From a virus: 39,498 nucleotides of DNA. The stretch's first letter is position 1, and each line of letters opens with the position of its first letter. The stretch is taken from IMG/VR virus record IMGVR_UViG_3300049719_000112, positions 1-39,498 of that record; one strand, given 5' to 3'. This document shows positions 4,440 to 39,498 of the stretch, piece after piece. A program made the translations under genes and the position numbers. The notes under the pieces are model-generated. The model saw only the letters and a list, made by a program, of their open reading frames with translations. It searched no databases and was not told the DNA's origin.

Positions 4440-5987
4440 ATGCTCCCCCGACACTACCAATCCCTGACCGTCGACAAGACGGATGCCGCGTTCAAAGAGT
4501 TTGACCGCGTGCTCGATGTCCTGCCCACAGGGAGCGGCAAGACCCCCATTTTAAGCTGGCTGGCAAAGCGGCGGCGGGACCGGGGCGAGCGCACACTGAT
4601 TCTAGCACACCGAGAGGAACTGATTGAACAAGCGATTGACAAATTACACCAGGCGACGGGCATTGTTGCTGATAAGGAAAAGGCTGAAAGCACAGGGAGC
4701 TTGCAAGCATCTGTGGTTGTCGGCTCTGTCCAGACTCTCGCCAGGGAAGCGCGACGCCAGCGTTGGCCGCGGGATCACTTCGGGCTCGTAGTCGTTGACG
4801 AGGCGCACCACGTTCTAGCCGACAGCTACCAGGCCATCCTGAATCACTTCACCGGGCAAGTCCTTGGGGTGACAGCCACGCCCGACCGGGGCGATTGCCG
4901 CGAGCTGGGCAGTTACTTCCAGACCATCGGCCATGAGGTTGGACTGTTCGATTTGATACCGGAATACCTGTCTCCCATCAGCCTCAAAAGCATCCCGCTA
5001 CAGATTGACCTGAGCCGGGTCCGTTCAGTTGCCGGCGACTTCAATGCTGGAGGACTGGGGGCCGCACTGGAGCCCTACCTTGATGAGATTGCCGCGGTCA
5101 TCCGTGATAACTGCGCCTTTCGCCGCACGCTGGCTTTCCTGCCGCTCATTGCCACCTCGCAGAAGTTTGTCGCGGCGTGCCGCATGGCCGGTATTTCGGC
5201 AGAGCACATCGACGGCGAGTCTCCCGACCGCGCTGAAAAGCTGGCGCGGTTCGCCGCCTGGGACTTTGATCTGTTGAGCAACGCCATGTTGCTTACAGAG
5301 GGGTTTGATGATCCGGGCATAGATTGTGTCATCGTCCTGCGTCCAACGCGCAGCAGGCCCCTTTACGCGCAGATGATTGGCCGCGGCACGAGGCGGCACG
5401 AAGGCAAGAGTGACCTGCTTCTCTTGGACTTCCTCTGGATGCACGAGCGGTATTCAATCGCCCGCCCGGCCAACCTCATAGCCGACAGTCAGGAGCACGC
5501 GGACCAGATCACGTCGCTATCGCAGGCGGGAATTCCCGCTGACATCGCGGACCAGCTACCGCTCGACTTGCAAGGGCTGGCCGGCAAGGCCACTCACGAG
5601 CGCGAGGAAAAGCTGCGCAAGGAATTGGAGAAGCTCAAAGAGCGCCAGAGCAAGATCCTCACCGCCGAGCAATTCGCCCTAAAGCACAACAGCCTCTCAA
5701 TCGCCGAATACGAGCCGGTCATGCCGTGGGAATCGAATCCGGTGACAGACAAGCAAAAGAAGTGGCTGGCCCGGGCGCACATTGACCTGAGCACAGTGCG
5801 CGGAAAGGGCCACGCATCAAAGCTGCTCTCGGTTTATTTCGATCACAAGCCTGTCACTCTGGCCAGCTCGGGGCAGCGGGCCATCATGCGCCGCATGGGC
5901 TTTGAGAATTGGGAGGGGGCGACCGCCGATGACGCGCGGCGCTTCTTCGCAGAGTTACGGAAACCAAAACAGGAAGCATTATTGTGA
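4440..5987 (+). CDS. DEAD/DEAH-box superfamily 2 helicase
   Basis: 515 aa. Motifs in order: Walker A PTGSGKT (29-35), ILAHREEL (motif Ia), VVVDEAHH with DEAH (120-123), GVTATP (motif III, about 143-148), and QMIGRGTRR (motif VI, from 311). LLTEGFDDPGID is motif V-like. This is the two-RecA-lobe layout of ATP-driven SF2 helicases encoded by many phages. Residues about 385-410 form a charged coiled coil. The last 85 residues (TDKQKKWL…ATADDARRFF) are a small helical domain seen in phage members. Start has GGAG 8 nt upstream. Likely unwinds DNA in phage replication or recombination. Confidence 0.9.
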   Translation: MLPRHYQSLTVDKTDAAFKEFDRVLDVLPTGSGKTPILSWLAKRRRDRGERTLILAHREELIEQAIDKLHQATGIVADKEKAESTGSLQASVVVGSVQTLAREARRQRWPRDHFGLVVVDEAHHVLADSYQAILNHFTGQVLGVTATPDRGDCRELGSYFQTIGHEVGLFDLIPEYLSPISLKSIPLQIDLSRVRSVAGDFNAGGLGAALEPYLDEIAAVIRDNCAFRRTLAFLPLIATSQKFVAACRMAGISAEHIDGESPDRAEKLARFAAWDFDLLSNAMLLTEGFDDPGIDCVIVLRPTRSRPLYAQMIGRGTRRHEGKSDLLLLDFLWMHERYSIARPANLIADSQEHADQITSLSQAGIPADIADQLPLDLQGLAGKATHEREEKLRKELEKLKERQSKILTAEQFALKHNSLSIAEYEPVMPWESNPVTDKQKKWLARAHIDLSTVRGKGHASKLLSVYFDHKPVTLASSGQRAIMRRMGFENWEGATADDARRFFAELRKPKQEALL

Positions 5988-6094
5988 GAGCACTACTAAA
6001 CTACACCTTCGGCGCCATGGTCGTCGGCGCGGCGCTGTGCCACGCGCGGGCCAATCCGAAGACGCCGCGGCCAACGAGTCACTGGGTGATATGA
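5984..6094 (+). CDS. Small membrane-type protein, GTG start
   Basis: 36 aa. GTG at 5984 overlaps the helicase stop (GTGA) and AGGAAG lies just upstream. The stop overlaps the methylase ATG (ATGA), so it fills the gap exactly. The N-terminal half (LLNYTFGAMVVGAAL) is hydrophobic enough for one short membrane segment; the tail is basic and Pro/Thr-rich. No family recognised. The perfect double overlap is the main support. Confidence 0.5.
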   Translation: MRALLNYTFGAMVVGAALCHARANPKTPRPTSHWVI

Positions 6095-7194
6095 ACGCAC
6101 AGGCCGAATCCCTGAAAGCACCATTCCCCTGGTTTGGTGGGAAGTCACGTTGCGCCGATGAAGTCTGGACCGCGCTCGGGCCGGTGGCCAACTACGTCGA
6201 GCCCTTCGCGGGCTCGCTGGCCGTCCTGCTCATGCGACCGGACTACGGCTGGCAGACGGGAGCAGAGACGGTGAACGATGCGGACTCGTTCTTGAGTAAC
6301 TTCTGGCGTGCGCTATCGGCGGACCCGGAGCAAGTGGCGCACTATGCGGACTGGCCGGTCAACGAGACTGATTTGCTCGCCCGTCACATCTGGCTGGTGA
6401 ACACCGGGCGCGAGCGAATTGCGAAGATGGAGAGCGACCCGGACTTCTTCGACGCTAAGGTGGCGGGTTGGTGGGTGTGGGGCATCAATTCCTGGATTGG
6501 CTCAGGCTGGTGCGTTGGAAAGGGGCCGTGGGGAATCGTCAACGGAAAAGTTGAGAAAAACGGCGGCCAGGGCGTCAACCGCAAGCGCCCGCACTTGGGC
6601 GACGCAGGCCAGGGCGTCAACCGCAAGCGCCCACACTTGGGCGACGCAGTCCAGGGCGTCAAAAGCCAGCGCCCGCACCTTGGCGGAGGCCAGGGCGTCA
6701 ACCGCCAGCTCCCGCACTTGGGCAGCCGAGATCAAGGTGGACAACTAAGACCAAATCCGCAGCTTCAAGATTATTTCCTTGCGCTGGCCGATCGCCTGCG
6801 CCGCGTGCGCGTCTGCTGCGGCGACTGGTCAAGGGTTGTCACCACGGGCGCTCTATCATTCGGTGACTCGGTTGGAATATTCTTAGACCCTCCCTACCTC
6901 GGCGATGTCCGTAGCAAAAACCTCTACCGGGTTGACGACCACAACCTGAGCAACATCGTTCGAGAGTGGGCGATAGCCAACGGCGGCAACAAGAGATACC
7001 GGATCGTGCTTGCGGGATACGAAGATGAACACGCGATGAAGATGCCCGACTCATGGCGCAAGCATGCATACACGGCCAACCGCGCCTACGGAACAAGCAC
7101 CAATGCAGACAGTGATAACAACTCAAACCGGCACAATGAGCGGCTGTGGTATTCGCCGCATTGCCTCAACCCCGAGCCGGAACTGTTCGCATGA
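6091..7194 (+). CDS. D12-class DNA N6-adenine methyltransferase
   Basis: 367 aa. It transfers methyl from S-adenosylmethionine to adenine N6 in DNA. AdoMet-binding N-terminus: PFPWFGGKSR (11-20) and YVEPFAGSLAVLL (35-47). The catalytic motif DPPY is at 266-269, and the C-terminal NERLWYSPHC is typical of phage Dam-like enzymes. Between them, residues about 159-212 are four tandem copies of a 13-14-residue unit (GQGVNRKRPHLGDA), placed where the target-recognition or an insertion domain would sit. ATG 6091 overlaps the upstream mini-gene stop. Probably protects phage DNA from host restriction or regulates phage functions; the recognition site is not readable from sequence. Confidence 0.9.
   Translation: MNAQAESLKAPFPWFGGKSRCADEVWTALGPVANYVEPFAGSLAVLLMRPDYGWQTGAETVNDADSFLSNFWRALSADPEQVAHYADWPVNETDLLARHIWLVNTGRERIAKMESDPDFFDAKVAGWWVWGINSWIGSGWCVGKGPWGIVNGKVEKNGGQGVNRKRPHLGDAGQGVNRKRPHLGDAVQGVKSQRPHLGGGQGVNRQLPHLGSRDQGGQLRPNPQLQDYFLALADRLRRVRVCCGDWSRVVTTGALSFGDSVGIFLDPPYLGDVRSKNLYRVDDHNLSNIVREWAIANGGNKRYRIVLAGYEDEHAMKMPDSWRKHAYTANRAYGTSTNADSDNNSNRHNERLWYSPHCLNPEPELFA
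6565..6726 (+). repeat. In-frame tandem repeat inside the methylase gene (42/42/39/39 nt)
   Basis: Units start at 6565, 6607, 6649 and 6688 and each begins G(G/T)CCAGGGCGTCAA. Units 1 and 2 are nearly identical at DNA level. The length always stays a multiple of three, so copy number could change without breaking the frame. Encodes (G/V)QGV-x4-RPHLG-type peptides rich in Arg, His and Gln. Confidence 0.9.
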
Positions 7195-9371: not shown

Positions 9372-9518
9372 TCATATACCCCCTGAGCTGTCAGGTTGTC
9401 AGGTTGTCAGTTAATACCAAACTGATAACACTGACAACTGATAACTTTGCCCAGTTGTCAGGTTGTCAGTTTGACCTGTTTTTGGAGACTGACAACCTGA
9501 CAACTACCCCCCCTGTCA

Positions 9519-9572
9519 GGTTGTCAGTCAGCTATCCCCCCCTACGGGGGGGAATAGGGCTGACTGACAACC
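9519..9572. repeat. 54-bp near-perfect cruciform in the iteron array
   Basis: Outer arms GGTTGTCAGTCAGC (9519-9532) and its exact complement (9559-9572) give 14 bp. Inside, seven C (9536-9542) face seven G (9546-9552) around a TAC loop, joined by a TAT/ATA step with a small bulge. It is by far the strongest palindrome I found in the window, and its arms are themselves iteron copies. No T-run follows, so it is not a normal terminator. Confidence 0.85.
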
Positions 9573-9601
9573 ATGAACAGGGAACCCCAAGCTGTCAGTT
9601 G

Positions 9602-9633
9602 TCAGTTGTCAGTTATGAGCGACTGACAACTGA
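9602..9633. repeat. 12-bp stem hairpin made of iteron copies
   Basis: TCAGTTGTCAGT (9602-9613) is exactly complementary to ACTGACAACTGA (9622-9633), with an 8-nt loop. It sits at the right end of the array and pairs opposite-facing repeats. Confidence 0.8.
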
Positions 9634-9637
9634 TAAC

Positions 9638-9928
9638 CTACCCATATGCCCCACAGGCCAGGAGGCCATACGCGCTATACCGCATCCTAGGTTCTCCCTG
9701 GGGGATATAGGGAGAGGAGGTTTCCGAACCGGTGAAAATATCTACTCCCAGGAAAAACTAAGAGCCCCAACGCAAGAGCGCCTTGCCACATTTCCGGCAC
9801 TTTTACCCCCGGGACCATACCTAGACACCCCCCAGGCCATCAAAACGCCCTATAAACGATTCCAGGCATGAATTCCTTAAGGTCGAATACGATCTATTGA
9901 GCGTCGCCGCCATGACGCCGATTGGCAC
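9638..9928. other. Non-coding stretch after the iteron array
   Basis: No convincing gene is seen. A weak hairpin, TCTCCCT…AGGGAGA around 9693-9714, lies inside a wider GGTTC…GAACC pair (about 9690-9730). The base composition is mixed and no clear promoter was identified. An open frame crosses this stretch from 9368, but its N-terminal part is only translated repeat (see rejected items). Confidence 0.5.
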
Positions 9929-10930: not shown

Positions 10931-11167
10931 ATGGACAACTACCTTTTGCTTGGGGCCTGGATCGTCGTGGGAATTGATTCACTCATACCCGTTACGGTTC
11001 TGCTGTTAATGTTTTATCGGGCGTTAAGTCAAGACTGGAAACTCACGGCTCTGCTAATGGGATTGGCAGTGTTCGTGCTCCTGTTCGCAGCGTCCTTAGC
11101 TTATCTTTTTAATCACGATTGGGTCTTCCCACAGGCACCCATCACAGCGGAGGAGCCAGCAAAGTGA
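10931..11167 (+). CDS. Two-segment membrane protein, copy A of a paralogous pair
   Basis: 78 aa with two membrane segments (about 3-28 and 38-62). It is clearly related to the 77-aa product at 11752: both have GAWIVVGI near the N-terminus, a central charged DWK, an LA/YLA-type second segment and an (I/V)TAEE tail. GGGG lies a few bases before ATG 10931. The two copies flank the likely small-terminase gene. A holin-like or superinfection role is possible but unproven. Confidence 0.65.
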   Translation: MDNYLLLGAWIVVGIDSLIPVTVLLLMFYRALSQDWKLTALLMGLAVFVLLFAASLAYLFNHDWVFPQAPITAEEPAK

Positions 11168-11703
11168 ACTCTGAAACCTTCACCCTCCGCGAGCTGGTGC
11201 GACGCACCGGGGCAACAATGCGAACCGTGCGCAAGGCCCTGGAGCGGGAAGGCATCCGGCGCGTGAGCGGCAAATACCCCGCTCAGGCGCTCGACCGGGT
11301 GATTCCGCATCTGAAGCACTACAAGGGTGAGATCCCCGCAGGCGAGACACCAGCCAACATCGACCAGCGGAGCGGGCTGAGTTATGCGCAACTGCTCACC
11401 CGAGAAAAGGCATTGGAGCAGGAGCGCAGGAATGAAGAAGAGCAGGCAGTCAGGGAAAAGAAATGGGTTCTGGCCGCCGATATGTGCGACATCCTGCGGA
11501 TGATAACCAACAAGCTCGAACAGTATCCGGGCCGGGCGCGCAGCGAGGCCGGGCTGACTGACACCCAGAGCGGAGTGATTCAAAAGCTCATGGACGGCAT
11601 TCGCAACGAGATTGCCGATTCTATAGAGAAGATGGGACCGAAGTCTTCACAAACAAATGAAAACGAAATTGGTGTTCGTCGTGCCGATGGTGCTCATCTA
11701 TGA
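11164..11703 (+). CDS. Probable terminase small subunit (Nu1-like)
   Basis: 179 aa from GTG 11164, which overlaps the upstream stop (GTGA). An N-terminal winged HTH (FTLRELVRRTGATMRTVRKAL) is followed by a long charged coiled coil (LTREKALEQERRNEEEQAVREKK). Then comes the KLEQYPGRARSEAGLTDTQSGVIQKLMD block that resembles the end of lambda Nu1-type small terminases. The small subunit binds the packaging site and recruits the large subunit, encoded 2 kb downstream. Such a gap between the two is unusual. Start and domain order fit; identity is by resemblance. Confidence 0.55.
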   Translation: MNSETFTLRELVRRTGATMRTVRKALEREGIRRVSGKYPAQALDRVIPHLKHYKGEIPAGETPANIDQRSGLSYAQLLTREKALEQERRNEEEQAVREKKWVLAADMCDILRMITNKLEQYPGRARSEAGLTDTQSGVIQKLMDGIRNEIADSIEKMGPKSSQTNENEIGVRRADGAHL

Positions 11704-12522: not shown

Positions 12523-12559
12523 TTTAACCAAACAACAGAAACCAAGAAACCAAGAAACA

Positions 12560-13171
12560 ATGAAATCAATACAAACACAATGGACCGGGATTAGGCCGCT
12601 GGTGATGTCTAATCCACAGACGGTGCAAATCAGCAATCACTACGCGGTAGAGTCTCGCAGACTCGGGGCGATGCTCAAGACCGCTCGAAAGAAGCAAGAT
12701 GAGAACAAACTCATCGAACTGGAACAGTCACAAATCCGCAATGACTGGGAAGCATCGGCCTACTGGGATGACAAAGAGAAAAAGTTTTTCATCCCCGACA
12801 CGCTCCTTCTCAAGTGCATCCGCGACGGAGCGGCGGCAGCCAAGAAGGGAAAGGACGTGGACCGGGCCGTGCAGATAAGCGAGACGCATGCTTATCTCGA
12901 AACGACACCGCACAAGACGATGGACGCTGCTTTCCACGATGAAGCGTTCCATCTGGAGTGCCCCTGCAAGATTCCGCCGAAGACCGGGGCGCTAATCTGG
13001 AAATGCCGGTGCATGATACCGACCGGATGGAAACTGCGGTTCACGATTGAGTTCAACGATGACATCGTGGCGAAGGAGTCAGTCAAGCAGGCCATTGAAC
13101 AGGCTGGGCTGATGTGCGGCATTGGCGGCTGGCGCCCGAAGTTTGGGCGGTTCTTCGCGGAGATTTTGTGA
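12560..13171 (+). CDS. Conserved phage protein with C-terminal GxGxWRPxxGRF motif
   Basis: 203 aa. It resembles a widespread phage family of unknown function: TGIRPLVMSNP near the start, a block of Lys/Glu helix, EASAYWDD…FFIPDTLLLKCIRDGA, a GWKLRFTIEFNDDIV strand and the hallmark CGIGGWRPKFGRF at the end. The Gly-rich end and beta layout recall RAMP-like folds, but that is speculation. The start follows short GAAACCAA repeats and has no clear Shine-Dalgarno. The 5-nt-periodic array begins at the base after its stop codon. Confidence 0.65.
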   Translation: MKSIQTQWTGIRPLVMSNPQTVQISNHYAVESRRLGAMLKTARKKQDENKLIELEQSQIRNDWEASAYWDDKEKKFFIPDTLLLKCIRDGAAAAKKGKDVDRAVQISETHAYLETTPHKTMDAAFHDEAFHLECPCKIPPKTGALIWKCRCMIPTGWKLRFTIEFNDDIVAKESVKQAIEQAGLMCGIGGWRPKFGRFFAEIL

Positions 13172-13246
13172 GGCCGGGCGAGGCATGGCCTGGCTAGGCC
13201 GGGCGCGGCGCTGCACAGCGCAGCGAGGCACAGCGCAGCGAGGCAA
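13172..13246 (+). repeat. Pentanucleotide-period array, 15 units of (R)GCNN
   Basis: From the base after the stop codon, every fifth base begins a unit: eight GGCNN units in a row, then TGCAC, AGCGC, AGCGA, GGCAC, AGCGC, AGCGA, GGCAA. The period is exactly 5 for 75 nt with the first three bases constrained and the last two free. The last six units form a 15-nt direct duplication. A 5-nt period cannot be a codon pattern, so this is a DNA or RNA signal. Confidence 0.85.
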
Positions 13247-13258
13247 CAGCAACAACAT

Positions 13259-13277
13259 GGCCGGTGAAAGTCCGGCC
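13259..13277 (+). promoter_or_regulatory. Hairpin ahead of the 13285 gene
   Basis: GGCCGG (13259-13264) and CCGGCC (13272-13277) form a perfect 6-bp GC stem with a 7-nt loop, ending 7 nt before ATG 13285. It may affect translation of that gene or close off the upstream array. Confidence 0.6.
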
Positions 13278-13284
13278 AAAGTTT

Positions 13285-13851
13285 ATGACAGAAACAACAA
13301 AACAAATCGGTGAGACAGAGACACAGCAGGCAGAACTCGTGCGGCTACCACTATGGCGGTCGTGTGTAGAGGCAATGCTTGCGGACGGGGTGGAATACGG
13401 CAAAACCTATTCCGCCGAATACTTCGAAGAAAAGCTGCGATGCAAGCGCGACCAGATGGCATTTGGGATTTCCCTGAGCCAGGTCCGCCGCGCTCTGGAA
13501 ACGAAAGGATTCTATCTGAGCGGGCGCGGGCTCAAGGGCAACTCGTTCATCATCTTGGAGCCGAAGAACAATGTCAACGTTCTCCGCAGTTACTCGCACT
13601 CCGCGCTTGATGATCTCAAGCGTGGCGTGATACTCGGAACCAACACGAGACTGGACACACTTACCGCAGAGGAACGCCGCAGACACGAGTCCATGCTGCA
13701 AAAGATGGCCATGCGCCTCGTGATGATTAATAAGACAGCGCAGATAGCCCAGGTCATCGTCAGGAACTCTCCCAAACTCCTACAGCAATGCAAACCTCCC
13801 TCACTCACTACCCGCAGTTCGCCAGCATCGTCCGCCCCCCGGCGCGGCTGA
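13285..13851 (+). CDS. Hypothetical protein, possibly winged-helix
   Basis: 188 aa from ATG 13285; an in-frame GTG at 13264 lies inside the hairpin and is less attractive. Residues about 20-100 (LPLWRSCVEAMLADGVEYGKTYS … ISLSQVRRALETKGFYLSGRGL) look like a winged-helix DNA-binding domain. The remainder is helical and basic. The last 64 nt overlap the terminase gene in another frame. Position directly before the large terminase suggests a packaging or late-regulation role, but no family is recognised. Confidence 0.55.
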   Translation: MTETTKQIGETETQQAELVRLPLWRSCVEAMLADGVEYGKTYSAEYFEEKLRCKRDQMAFGISLSQVRRALETKGFYLSGRGLKGNSFIILEPKNNVNVLRSYSHSALDDLKRGVILGTNTRLDTLTAEERRRHESMLQKMAMRLVMINKTAQIAQVIVRNSPKLLQQCKPPSLTTRSSPASSAPRRG

Positions 13852-16022
13852 AGGTCAGTGAGTGGGCGGAGCAATTCGCCGTTTTGCCCCACGAAGGCAA
13901 CGAAGAGCCGGGCAAGTATCACCTCGCCCGAATGCCGCATCAGGCCGCGATGCTTGATGACCCGCTCGACCCGAGCGTCAGCGAAATCTTCTGGATGCTG
14001 GCCAGCCAATTCACGGGCAAGACAGCCTGCCTCACCATTCAATGTCTCTACGCGGCCCAGGCATTGAAGCGGTCAATGGTGATGGTTCGGTCCACCGGGG
14101 ACACGGCTAAGGAATGGATGCGTGAGAAGTTCATCCCCATGCTGGAAGAGACGCCGTGCATGGCCGGGCTGTTCAAAAACCCCCGCGTGCGGGACAGCGG
14201 CAGCACCTCGCTCAATCGCAGATTCCCCGGCGGCAGCCTCAAAGCCATCGGCGCCAAGTCGGCCATGCGGCTCAGGGGCGGTTCTGCCGGGATTGTATTT
14301 CAGGATGAGATAGACAGCTATGAGACACTGAAGCGCGAGGGCGATCCGTGCGCACTGGCAGACCGGGCCGCCAAGACATTCTCGCGGGCGTGGAAGATCA
14401 AGAGCAGCACGCCGACGCTTAAGGGTTTCTCTCGGATAGACTCAGGCTACGAGAGCGGGGACAAGCAAAAATATTTCATCCCCTGCCCTGTCTGCGGAGA
14501 GTTTCAAGATTTGAAGTTCTCACAGTTGAAGTTCAGCTTTACGGCGGAAGAACATGCGAGGTTTACGATTTATGAAACAAAAACAAATGACAGTAGAGCA
14601 ATTCATACAACAAGATGCGGAGAAGTTCTTCATGCCGCGCCCTCCGAAGCGAAAGTTTCTGCGGGGCAAAGGGGTGAAACCGAGGGCAGGTGTATTACTT
14701 CCTGTTTCACATGGGAGACAGGCAGCCATCCCATCAGAGACACCAAGCGGGCGCTCTACGTCTGCGAACACTGTCACCACGGATGGACAGACGCACAGCG
14801 CATCGCGGCCTACAAGTCGGGCCACAAAGACAACCCGGCAGTCACGGTGAATGGGAAGGAGCTTCGCGCAGAGTGGCGTGGCACCGCTCCATTCAAAGGC
14901 ATCCGCAGCCGCCATCTCAACGGAATGTATGGCACCATCGGATTAAAGGATGCCTACACCTCCTATCTGCACTGGTTCGCAGAGGATTTCCTCGCAGCCA
15001 AGCGCGACGGCAGAGAGACGCTGATGGTCTGGACCAACCTCTTTCTAGCCGAAGCCTTCGAGGATGAGTCAGAGAAAACGGATTGGAAGACTCTGCGCGA
15101 CCGTGGCGAGGATTACGTTGCCTGGGAAGAGCTGCCCGCTCAGGTCGTCTGGATTAACTGGGCTATGGACATTCACCCCGACCGCGTAGAGATTCTATTC
15201 TACGGCTGGGGCAGCAAGCGCGAATGCTGGGCACTGGAGAAACACGTTGAGTATTGCGACTTCGATTTGCAGTCCGCTCAGGACCTGGTGTGGGCCTACC
15301 TCGACGGCAAGAAGTTCAGCCATCCCATCCTCGGGCAGCTCACATGGGCCGTCGGCATGGTGGACGCCGGCTACCAGACGAAGGTGCAGGCCGTCTATCA
15401 GTTCGCCGGCAAGCACCGCTGGCGGAATGTGTTTTCAACGAAGGGCTTTGACACCATCCAGGGCGAGACAGTCATCGTGAAGAAGGAGCGGCGATTTGGC
15501 GGCAGCAAGGTCAACATCAACACCGACTACTTCAAGACGACGATTTACGATCGGCTGCAAAACACGGAGCCCGGCCCGAGCTACGTCCATTTCCCCAAAG
15601 CCGAGGCGGTGATCACCACCAAAGACGGCCAGCGCACCACGTTCAAGACCGGCTTCACCGACCGCTTCTATCAGCAAATGTGCAGCGAGCGGCGCATCCG
15701 GGTCAAGCTGCGGCTCGGAGGCTACAAAACCGAATGGCACAAGCTGACGAGCGCGACGCGCAATGAGGTTCTCGATTGCACCGTGGGCTGCTTCGCGGGC
15801 TGGGAAGTCGCGGGCGTGGAGCGCAACGGGGATATTGAGCGCAAGTGGAAGACCGTTGAGAAGGCGCTGGCGGCCATGCATCCCAAGCCGACGGCGCAGG
15901 AGGCCGCGGCGGCAATCACGCTGCCGGCGGAAATAAAAAAGCCCGAGCTGCGCACGGCGACGCAGCACCGCCCGGCGCGGAGGATGGTCATCAACTCGCC
16001 GTTTAGGTTTAGGAGATTTTGA
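13788..16022 (+). CDS. Terminase large subunit, GpA family
   Basis: 744 aa. The motor that pumps DNA into the prohead and cuts the concatemer. N-terminal signature ARLKVSEWAEQFAVLP; a Walker-A-like ASQFTGKT (72-79); Walker B GIVFQDEIDSYE with Asp173-Glu174; then the nuclease half with AMDIHPDRVEILFYGW (near residue 460), MVDAGYQT and EVLDCTVGC. A zinc-finger pair CPVC (233-236) and CEHC (326-329) is typical of GpA proteins, but here it is separated by an extra segment of about 70 residues (about 250-320). At 744 aa it is longer than lambda GpA (641). The start overlaps the previous gene by 64 nt without a strong Shine-Dalgarno. Confidence 0.92.
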   Translation: MQTSLTHYPQFASIVRPPARLKVSEWAEQFAVLPHEGNEEPGKYHLARMPHQAAMLDDPLDPSVSEIFWMLASQFTGKTACLTIQCLYAAQALKRSMVMVRSTGDTAKEWMREKFIPMLEETPCMAGLFKNPRVRDSGSTSLNRRFPGGSLKAIGAKSAMRLRGGSAGIVFQDEIDSYETLKREGDPCALADRAAKTFSRAWKIKSSTPTLKGFSRIDSGYESGDKQKYFIPCPVCGEFQDLKFSQLKFSFTAEEHARFTIYETKTNDSRAIHTTRCGEVLHAAPSEAKVSAGQRGETEGRCITSCFTWETGSHPIRDTKRALYVCEHCHHGWTDAQRIAAYKSGHKDNPAVTVNGKELRAEWRGTAPFKGIRSRHLNGMYGTIGLKDAYTSYLHWFAEDFLAAKRDGRETLMVWTNLFLAEAFEDESEKTDWKTLRDRGEDYVAWEELPAQVVWINWAMDIHPDRVEILFYGWGSKRECWALEKHVEYCDFDLQSAQDLVWAYLDGKKFSHPILGQLTWAVGMVDAGYQTKVQAVYQFAGKHRWRNVFSTKGFDTIQGETVIVKKERRFGGSKVNINTDYFKTTIYDRLQNTEPGPSYVHFPKAEAVITTKDGQRTTFKTGFTDRFYQQMCSERRIRVKLRLGGYKTEWHKLTSATRNEVLDCTVGCFAGWEVAGVERNGDIERKWKTVEKALAAMHPKPTAQEAAAAITLPAEIKKPELRTATQHRPARRMVINSPFRFRRF

Positions 16023-39181: not shown

Positions 39182-39498
39182 ATGAAAATTCAGATCAAAT
39201 CAATTTTGGGCACCGTTCTCTTTGAGGGAGATTTTACTGCGCTTTTGGACGCCGTAATGGCTGCCGTAAAACGGGGCGCAAACCTCCGGGGCGCAGACCT
39301 CCAGAGCGCAGACCTCTGGGGCGCAAACCTCCGGGGCGCAGACCTCTGGGGCGCAGACCTCCAGAGCGCAGACCTCCAGAGCGCAGACCTCTGGGGCGCA
39401 AACCTCCGGGGCGCAGACCTCCAGAGCGCAGACCTCCGGGGCGCAGACCTCCGTGGCGCAAACCTCCGGAGCGCAAACCTCCAGAGCGCAAACCTCCA
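39182..39498 (+). CDS. Pentapeptide-repeat protein, N-terminal part (truncated by window edge)
   Basis: At least 105 aa, open to the edge. The start MKIQIKSILGTVLFEGDF … LLDAVMAAVKRGANL is the usual N-terminus of phage-type pentapeptide proteins. From about residue 32 come continuous A(D/N)LxxA(D/N)L repeats (ADLQSADLWGANLRGADL), which fold as a right-handed quadrilateral beta-helix. No Shine-Dalgarno; ACGACAACAA is duplicated just before the ATG. The C-terminal tail of this type appears at bases 1-83. Confidence 0.85.
   Translation, partial: MKIQIKSILGTVLFEGDFTALLDAVMAAVKRGANLRGADLQSADLWGANLRGADLWGADLQSADLQSADLWGANLRGADLQSADLRGADLRGANLRSANLQSANL

Follow-up and report, generated by a model that had tools for sequence, protein, structure and literature searches.

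The question raised by this locus is what a 75-nt array of 5-nt repeats, located directly behind a stop codon in a viral genome, represents. The window (the whole stretch of 39,498 nt of viral DNA that was analyzed, IMG/VR record IMGVR_UViG_3300049719_000112) contains at positions 13172 to 13246 on the plus strand 15 units with the sequence GGCCG GGCGA GGCAT GGCCT GGCTA GGCCG GGCGC GGCGC TGCAC AGCGC AGCGA GGCAC AGCGC AGCGA GGCAA. Ten units begin with GGC, four with AGC and one with TGC, and the 5-nt register is exact throughout. An earlier sequence-only reading had described the array as 15 RGCNN units with one T exception, starting at the base after a stop codon, and both statements hold: the array begins right after the TGA (13169 to 13171) of the upstream gene. 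The period-5 identity of the array was 46/70, compared with 18.2 on average (sd 3.9) across the window, and the longest NGC run in 200 first-order Markov genomes was 7 units (median 4). Neither strand of the window contains another run of this kind; the second-longest NGC run at period 5 has 4 units. No second array was found in the window, the repeat scan of the window gave nothing that was read as a repeat-spacer array, and Rfam had no matching family.

A class that could accommodate such an array is the Viral Interference Programmable Repeat (VIPR) systems, described in a bioRxiv preprint in April 2026 (version 2, June 2026; PMC13142463), so the earlier statement that the array belongs to no named class is outdated. 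VIPR is found in phages and, like CRISPR, binds DNA under the guidance of RNA; its components are a RAMP protein of the phage (Vipr), Vap accessory proteins and guide RNAs termed vrRNAs (PMC13142463). A vrRNA consists of 9 to 16 units, in which GGY stays constant (or follows "a related consensus") and NN varies, and of a structured tail behind them (PMC13142463). The double-stranded DNA to be recognized is encoded in the NN letters, one base of the target being passed over, and the complex acts as a repressor of transcription (PMC13142463). In phage SUSP1, the vrRNAs were sequenced, and the array RNAs were found to be expressed and to co-purify with Vipr (PMC13142463). IMG/VR is cited by the same preprint (PMC13142463). 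The 15 units in the window fit the published size range.

The gene upstream of the array (12560 to 13171, plus strand) encodes a protein of 203 amino acids with the motif GIGGWRPKFGRF in a G-rich loop. The product matches phrog_4652 (E 1.3e-31), and when the family profile (A1) was compared with the PDB, one chain was strongly matched, 36pp, "SUSP1 Vipr protein" (E 5.2e-41). The AlphaFold2 model of the window protein had a pLDDT of 95.2 and a pTM of 0.89, and its best PDB fold matches were class 1 CRISPR RAMPs of the Csm3/Cmr4-type Cas7 group, with Csm3 at the top (Foldseek E about 1e-6; VIA-align Z 11.7, the best obtained). The fold library, with entries until 8 April 2026, did not yield 36pp as a match, so that the fold comparison points to CRISPR RAMPs alone; the window differs from CRISPR class 1 in having 5-nt units instead of spacers, and neither a CRISPR array nor additional cas genes were noticed nearby. 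The residues G183, G187, R192 and G196 are invariant. By homology and predicted fold, the gene is a Vipr gene (vipr), and the link to the conserved GxGxWRPxxGRF gene made in the sequence-only reading was the right one to follow. Direct identity to the named phage homologues is just 27 to 28%. Pfam and NCBIfam have no model for the family, and a single-protein search of the viral contigs using the window Vipr gave no matches. Immediately 5' of the vipr start codon is a period-8 AGAAACCA repeat (window 12537 to 12569).

The array is followed by a candidate vrRNA 3' tail (13247 to about 13284, plus strand, with a putative 3' end), which consists of a CAGCAACAACA linker, the hairpin TGGCCGG-tgaaagt-CCGGCCA at 13258 to 13278, and AAGTTT. 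The GC hairpin noticed earlier beyond the array (GGCCGG-tgaaagt-CCGGCC, within the same positions) is real and separate from the array. A hairpin with A-N-T-T-T at most a few bases behind it was found in 13 of 159 tails among the matches listed, including the window's own (12 of the 158 others), several of the 13 sharing one contig. In shuffled tails the mean was 0.5 of 159, a contrast that is somewhat flattering because the search motif was picked after several such tails were known. When the stems of nine tails were aligned by hand, counting from the base of each hairpin, stem levels 2, 4, 5 and 6 had changes on both sides, with differing sequences and pairing kept. Since the stems vary yet stay paired, an RNA hairpin is supported, and the hairpin after the array fits the 3' tail of a putative vrRNA.

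The end of the tail abuts the start codon of the downstream gene (13285 to 13851, plus strand, 188 amino acids). The only PHROG match of this protein was a weak one to phrog_5926 (E 0.024), a family that the SUSP1 Vap1 matches with an E of 1.1e-75. We took ALH47068, encoded directly 3' of vipr in SUSP1, as Vap1 because the preprint mentions vap1 in that operon. A profile was seeded with the SUSP1 Vap1 and a Vibrio homologue and iterated with the window protein excluded and the arrays masked, because array DNA translates into look-alike peptides; it settled at about 23 proteins. The window protein matched this profile with an E of 2.4e-15 and a clear gap to the next non-members. Direct BLASTP against the SUSP1 Vap1 was not significant, so that the converged profile was needed, and a genome_contigs search with the downstream protein gave no matches. 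On the profile match, the gene is assigned to the Vap1 family of SUSP1 (vap1).

The 3' end of vap1 overlaps the start of the terminase large subunit gene (TerL, 13788 to 16022, plus strand; phrog_15, E 1e-116), and a terminase-small-like gene (phrog_141/57) is located at 11119 to 11703. The gene order in the window is vipr, array, hairpin and AAGTTT tail, vap1 and TerL, which places the cassette inside the packaging region. TerL relatives in the viral contigs were merely 26% identical, and no sister phage was found there. Two other repeats were observed in the window. At 9389 to 9640, crowded direct and inverted copies of TGTCAGGTTG / CAACCTGACA adjoin a DnaB-like helicase gene and could be a replication origin or an operator cluster. 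At 39272 to 39497, a 15-nt tandem repeat is present 15 times in a frame that encodes A(D/N)L-type pentapeptide repeats; this is an ordinary pentapeptide-repeat protein cut off by the end of the window.

To cover other viruses, viral contigs were scanned for seven exact GGCNN units, (GGCNN)x7, and at least 120 stretches were found; the sample is not a census, because it was selected by strict GGC units. Among the matches listed, nearly all arrays, from more than 100 contigs besides the window, have freely varying NN letters; plain slippage is thereby excluded as the general cause. Also among the matches listed, most array clusters with a long neighboring open reading frame are on the same strand as the upstream gene and often start 4 to 30 nt past its stop, and a single similarity cluster, the GxGDxRPxxGRF family, accounts for 52 of the 147 array-flanking proteins, although array DNA translated into similar peptides may account for a few members. 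An alignment of 36 proteins, the window Vipr and 35 from the cluster, contained 35 that matched phrog_4652. A second family, phrog_15946, recurs beside GGCNN arrays (contigs L060, L097, L114, L118 and others; 17 of 52 scanned flanking proteins) and is possibly another vap family. In contig L010, a single run of about 140 GGYNN units (6311 to 7010) is located between a vipr-family gene (5661 to 6293) and a 751-aa open reading frame; it far exceeds the published 9 to 16 units and probably represents many overlapping or fused vrRNAs. In contig L117, at least 12 arrays in succession (4937 to 5831), nearly all with the final unit GGTTC, form a very long vrRNA array 3' of a vipr-family gene.

The sequence-only reading had named, as a finding that would speak against it, relatives with both flanking genes but no periodicity. 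The comparison did not refute it: vipr, vap1 and 5-nt arrays are all kept in SUSP1, Vibrio phage 1.266.O, L016, L110, L015, L024 and others. SUSP1, an Escherichia phage with a type II VIPR, shares with the window the Vipr and Vap1 families, 5-nt arrays of the GGY/NN type and a structured 3' tail. It has four vrRNAs (one upstream and three downstream of the genes), mostly with GGT units and with a pseudoknot tail, whereas in the window a single array with RGC units and a plain hairpin-AAGTTT tail separates vipr from vap1, at a site in the packaging region. Vibrio phage 1.266.O (L123) likewise has vipr and vap1 homologues and NGCNN arrays with a relaxed first letter, but it carries several arrays, one of them upstream of vipr, and its tails differ. 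At about 2840 to 3810 of L123, the arrays flank an unannotated vipr homologue and precede the vap1 homologue, with GGGGTAAAACTCAAG before each array. L016 (IMGVR_UViG_3300025889_001536) encodes the Vipr closest to that of the window among those aligned (35% identity), and has the same vipr - arrays - vap1 order and a hairpin and ACTTT tail; it differs in having two arrays with mostly strict GGY units.

The best explanation, to which we assign a probability of about 0.94, is that vipr, vrRNA and vap1 together make up a compact VIPR cassette in the packaging region of a tailed phage, and that the array is the repeat tract of the vrRNA. What the analysis established for this explanation is the array, the Vipr family, the predicted fold, the Vap1 family, the tail class and the recurrence in other phages. 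The window contains a Vipr protein with an RRM core and a G-rich loop, an array of 9 to 16 units, a structured 3' tail and an adjacent vap gene; it is a system of the kind already described, a new member of VIPR.

For expression, ribonucleoprotein assembly, the code with a 1-nt skip and silencing, we infer from the published SUSP1 work how the cassette might operate. Transcription of the 15-unit array with its hairpin tail would yield an RNA of about 110 nt that is retained. Vipr molecules would line up along this vrRNA, one per 5-nt unit, as suggested by RAMP biology. Each copy would grip the constant RGC triplet and present the NN pair, the variable dinucleotide that by homology reads the target. 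Successive NN pairs would recognize double-stranded DNA across gaps of one unread target base, silencing a target gene that most likely belongs to a competing mobile element. Vap1 would assist.

Decoding the NN pairs as published, with a skip of one target base, gives the guide CGnGAnATnCTnTAnCGnGCnGCnACnGCnGAnACnGCnGAnAA; with the skips at wobble positions, the sense peptide would be R[DE][IM]LYRAATA[DE]TA[DE][KN]. Exact scans with parts of the guide returned 14, 6, 53 and 8 contigs, and no convincing natural target was found in exact-match scans of viral_contigs and genome_contigs or in the window. The best full-guide agreement was 24 of 30 letters, compared with 20 to 23 of 30 for reordered guides on the same sequences, and it is not convincing because the sequences were preselected with the true guide, which the comparison thus favors. 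The missing target says little, because no mismatches were tolerated in the collection scans and close relatives of the virus are absent from the collections.

It is conceivable, though rather improbable, that the array is a vrRNA by descent whose 3' half, with the AGC and TGC units and a three-unit duplication, has become functionless, leaving a short or inactive guide. With AGC or TGC in place of GGY in 5 of the 15 units, some of the guide might have decayed; the first G is missing in 5 of the last 7 units, units 9 to 11 and 12 to 14 are a local three-unit duplication with one mismatch, and the absence of a target would also agree with decay. On the other hand, all 15 units are in perfect register, the vipr and vap1 genes are open and full length, and an intact hairpin tail is present. 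In SUSP1, whose array RNAs are expressed (PMC13142463), 0 of 11, 1 of 15 and 4 of 14 units of three arrays likewise start with a letter other than G, and the first letter is often relaxed in the arrays of Vibrio phage 1.266.O (read as NGCNN); the relaxed units of the window are therefore within the known range.

Within the VIPR explanation, a more specific proposal, which we consider doubtful, is that the window represents a single-guide subtype, in which the vrRNA lies between the two protein genes, the units are of the relaxed RGC form, and the hairpin-AAGTTT tail is one that a minority of phages share. Since the vrRNA tail reaches right up to the start codon of vap1, maturation of the RNA and translation of vap1 may interfere with each other. 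If the subtype proposal is true, release of the guide and translation of Vap1 would compete on one transcript at this packaging-region site, and the guide would be directed against satellites or other elements that hijack packaging.

The position of the tail end at the vap1 start codon could also suggest that the array is a structured leader regulating translation of vap1 or terL without any guide role. This is very unlikely: the array alone folds no better than shuffled sequences (z -1.0), and the relatives place arrays upstream of, between and downstream of the vipr and vap1 genes. Equally remote is a protein-binding ladder in double-stranded DNA, or a recombination substrate, in place of an RNA guide. 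A period of 5 is half a helical turn, but the neighboring RAMP-fold protein and the hairpin tail point to RNA, as do the SUSP1 homologue arrays, which are RNAs that co-purify with Vipr (PMC13142463). Of the three options in the sequence-only reading, the RNA element and the protein binding were right in combination, as a guide RNA whose repeats would, by homology, be bound by a RAMP-fold protein; the recombination substrate was set aside, as no sign of one was seen. Slippage of a functionless, expanding GC-rich microsatellite has a negligible chance of being the cause: one local three-unit duplication is present, but with RGC fixed and NN free to vary in the window and in the scanned contigs, and with arrays recurring beside one protein family, the slippage-only pattern envisaged earlier is in effect refuted.

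The analysis started independently, from a repeat seen in raw sequence, and arrived once more at the array with Vipr and Vap1, which supports the published description. Its additions to that description are a single-guide cassette whose first letters are relaxed, a marker (hairpin and A[N]TTT) for some of the tails and an extensive collection of contigs with arrays. A period-5 GGY repeat adjoining phrog_4652 provides a cheap detector for VIPR, a system proposed as an ancestor of the CRISPR RAMP systems and one with a code unlike that of other guide RNAs.
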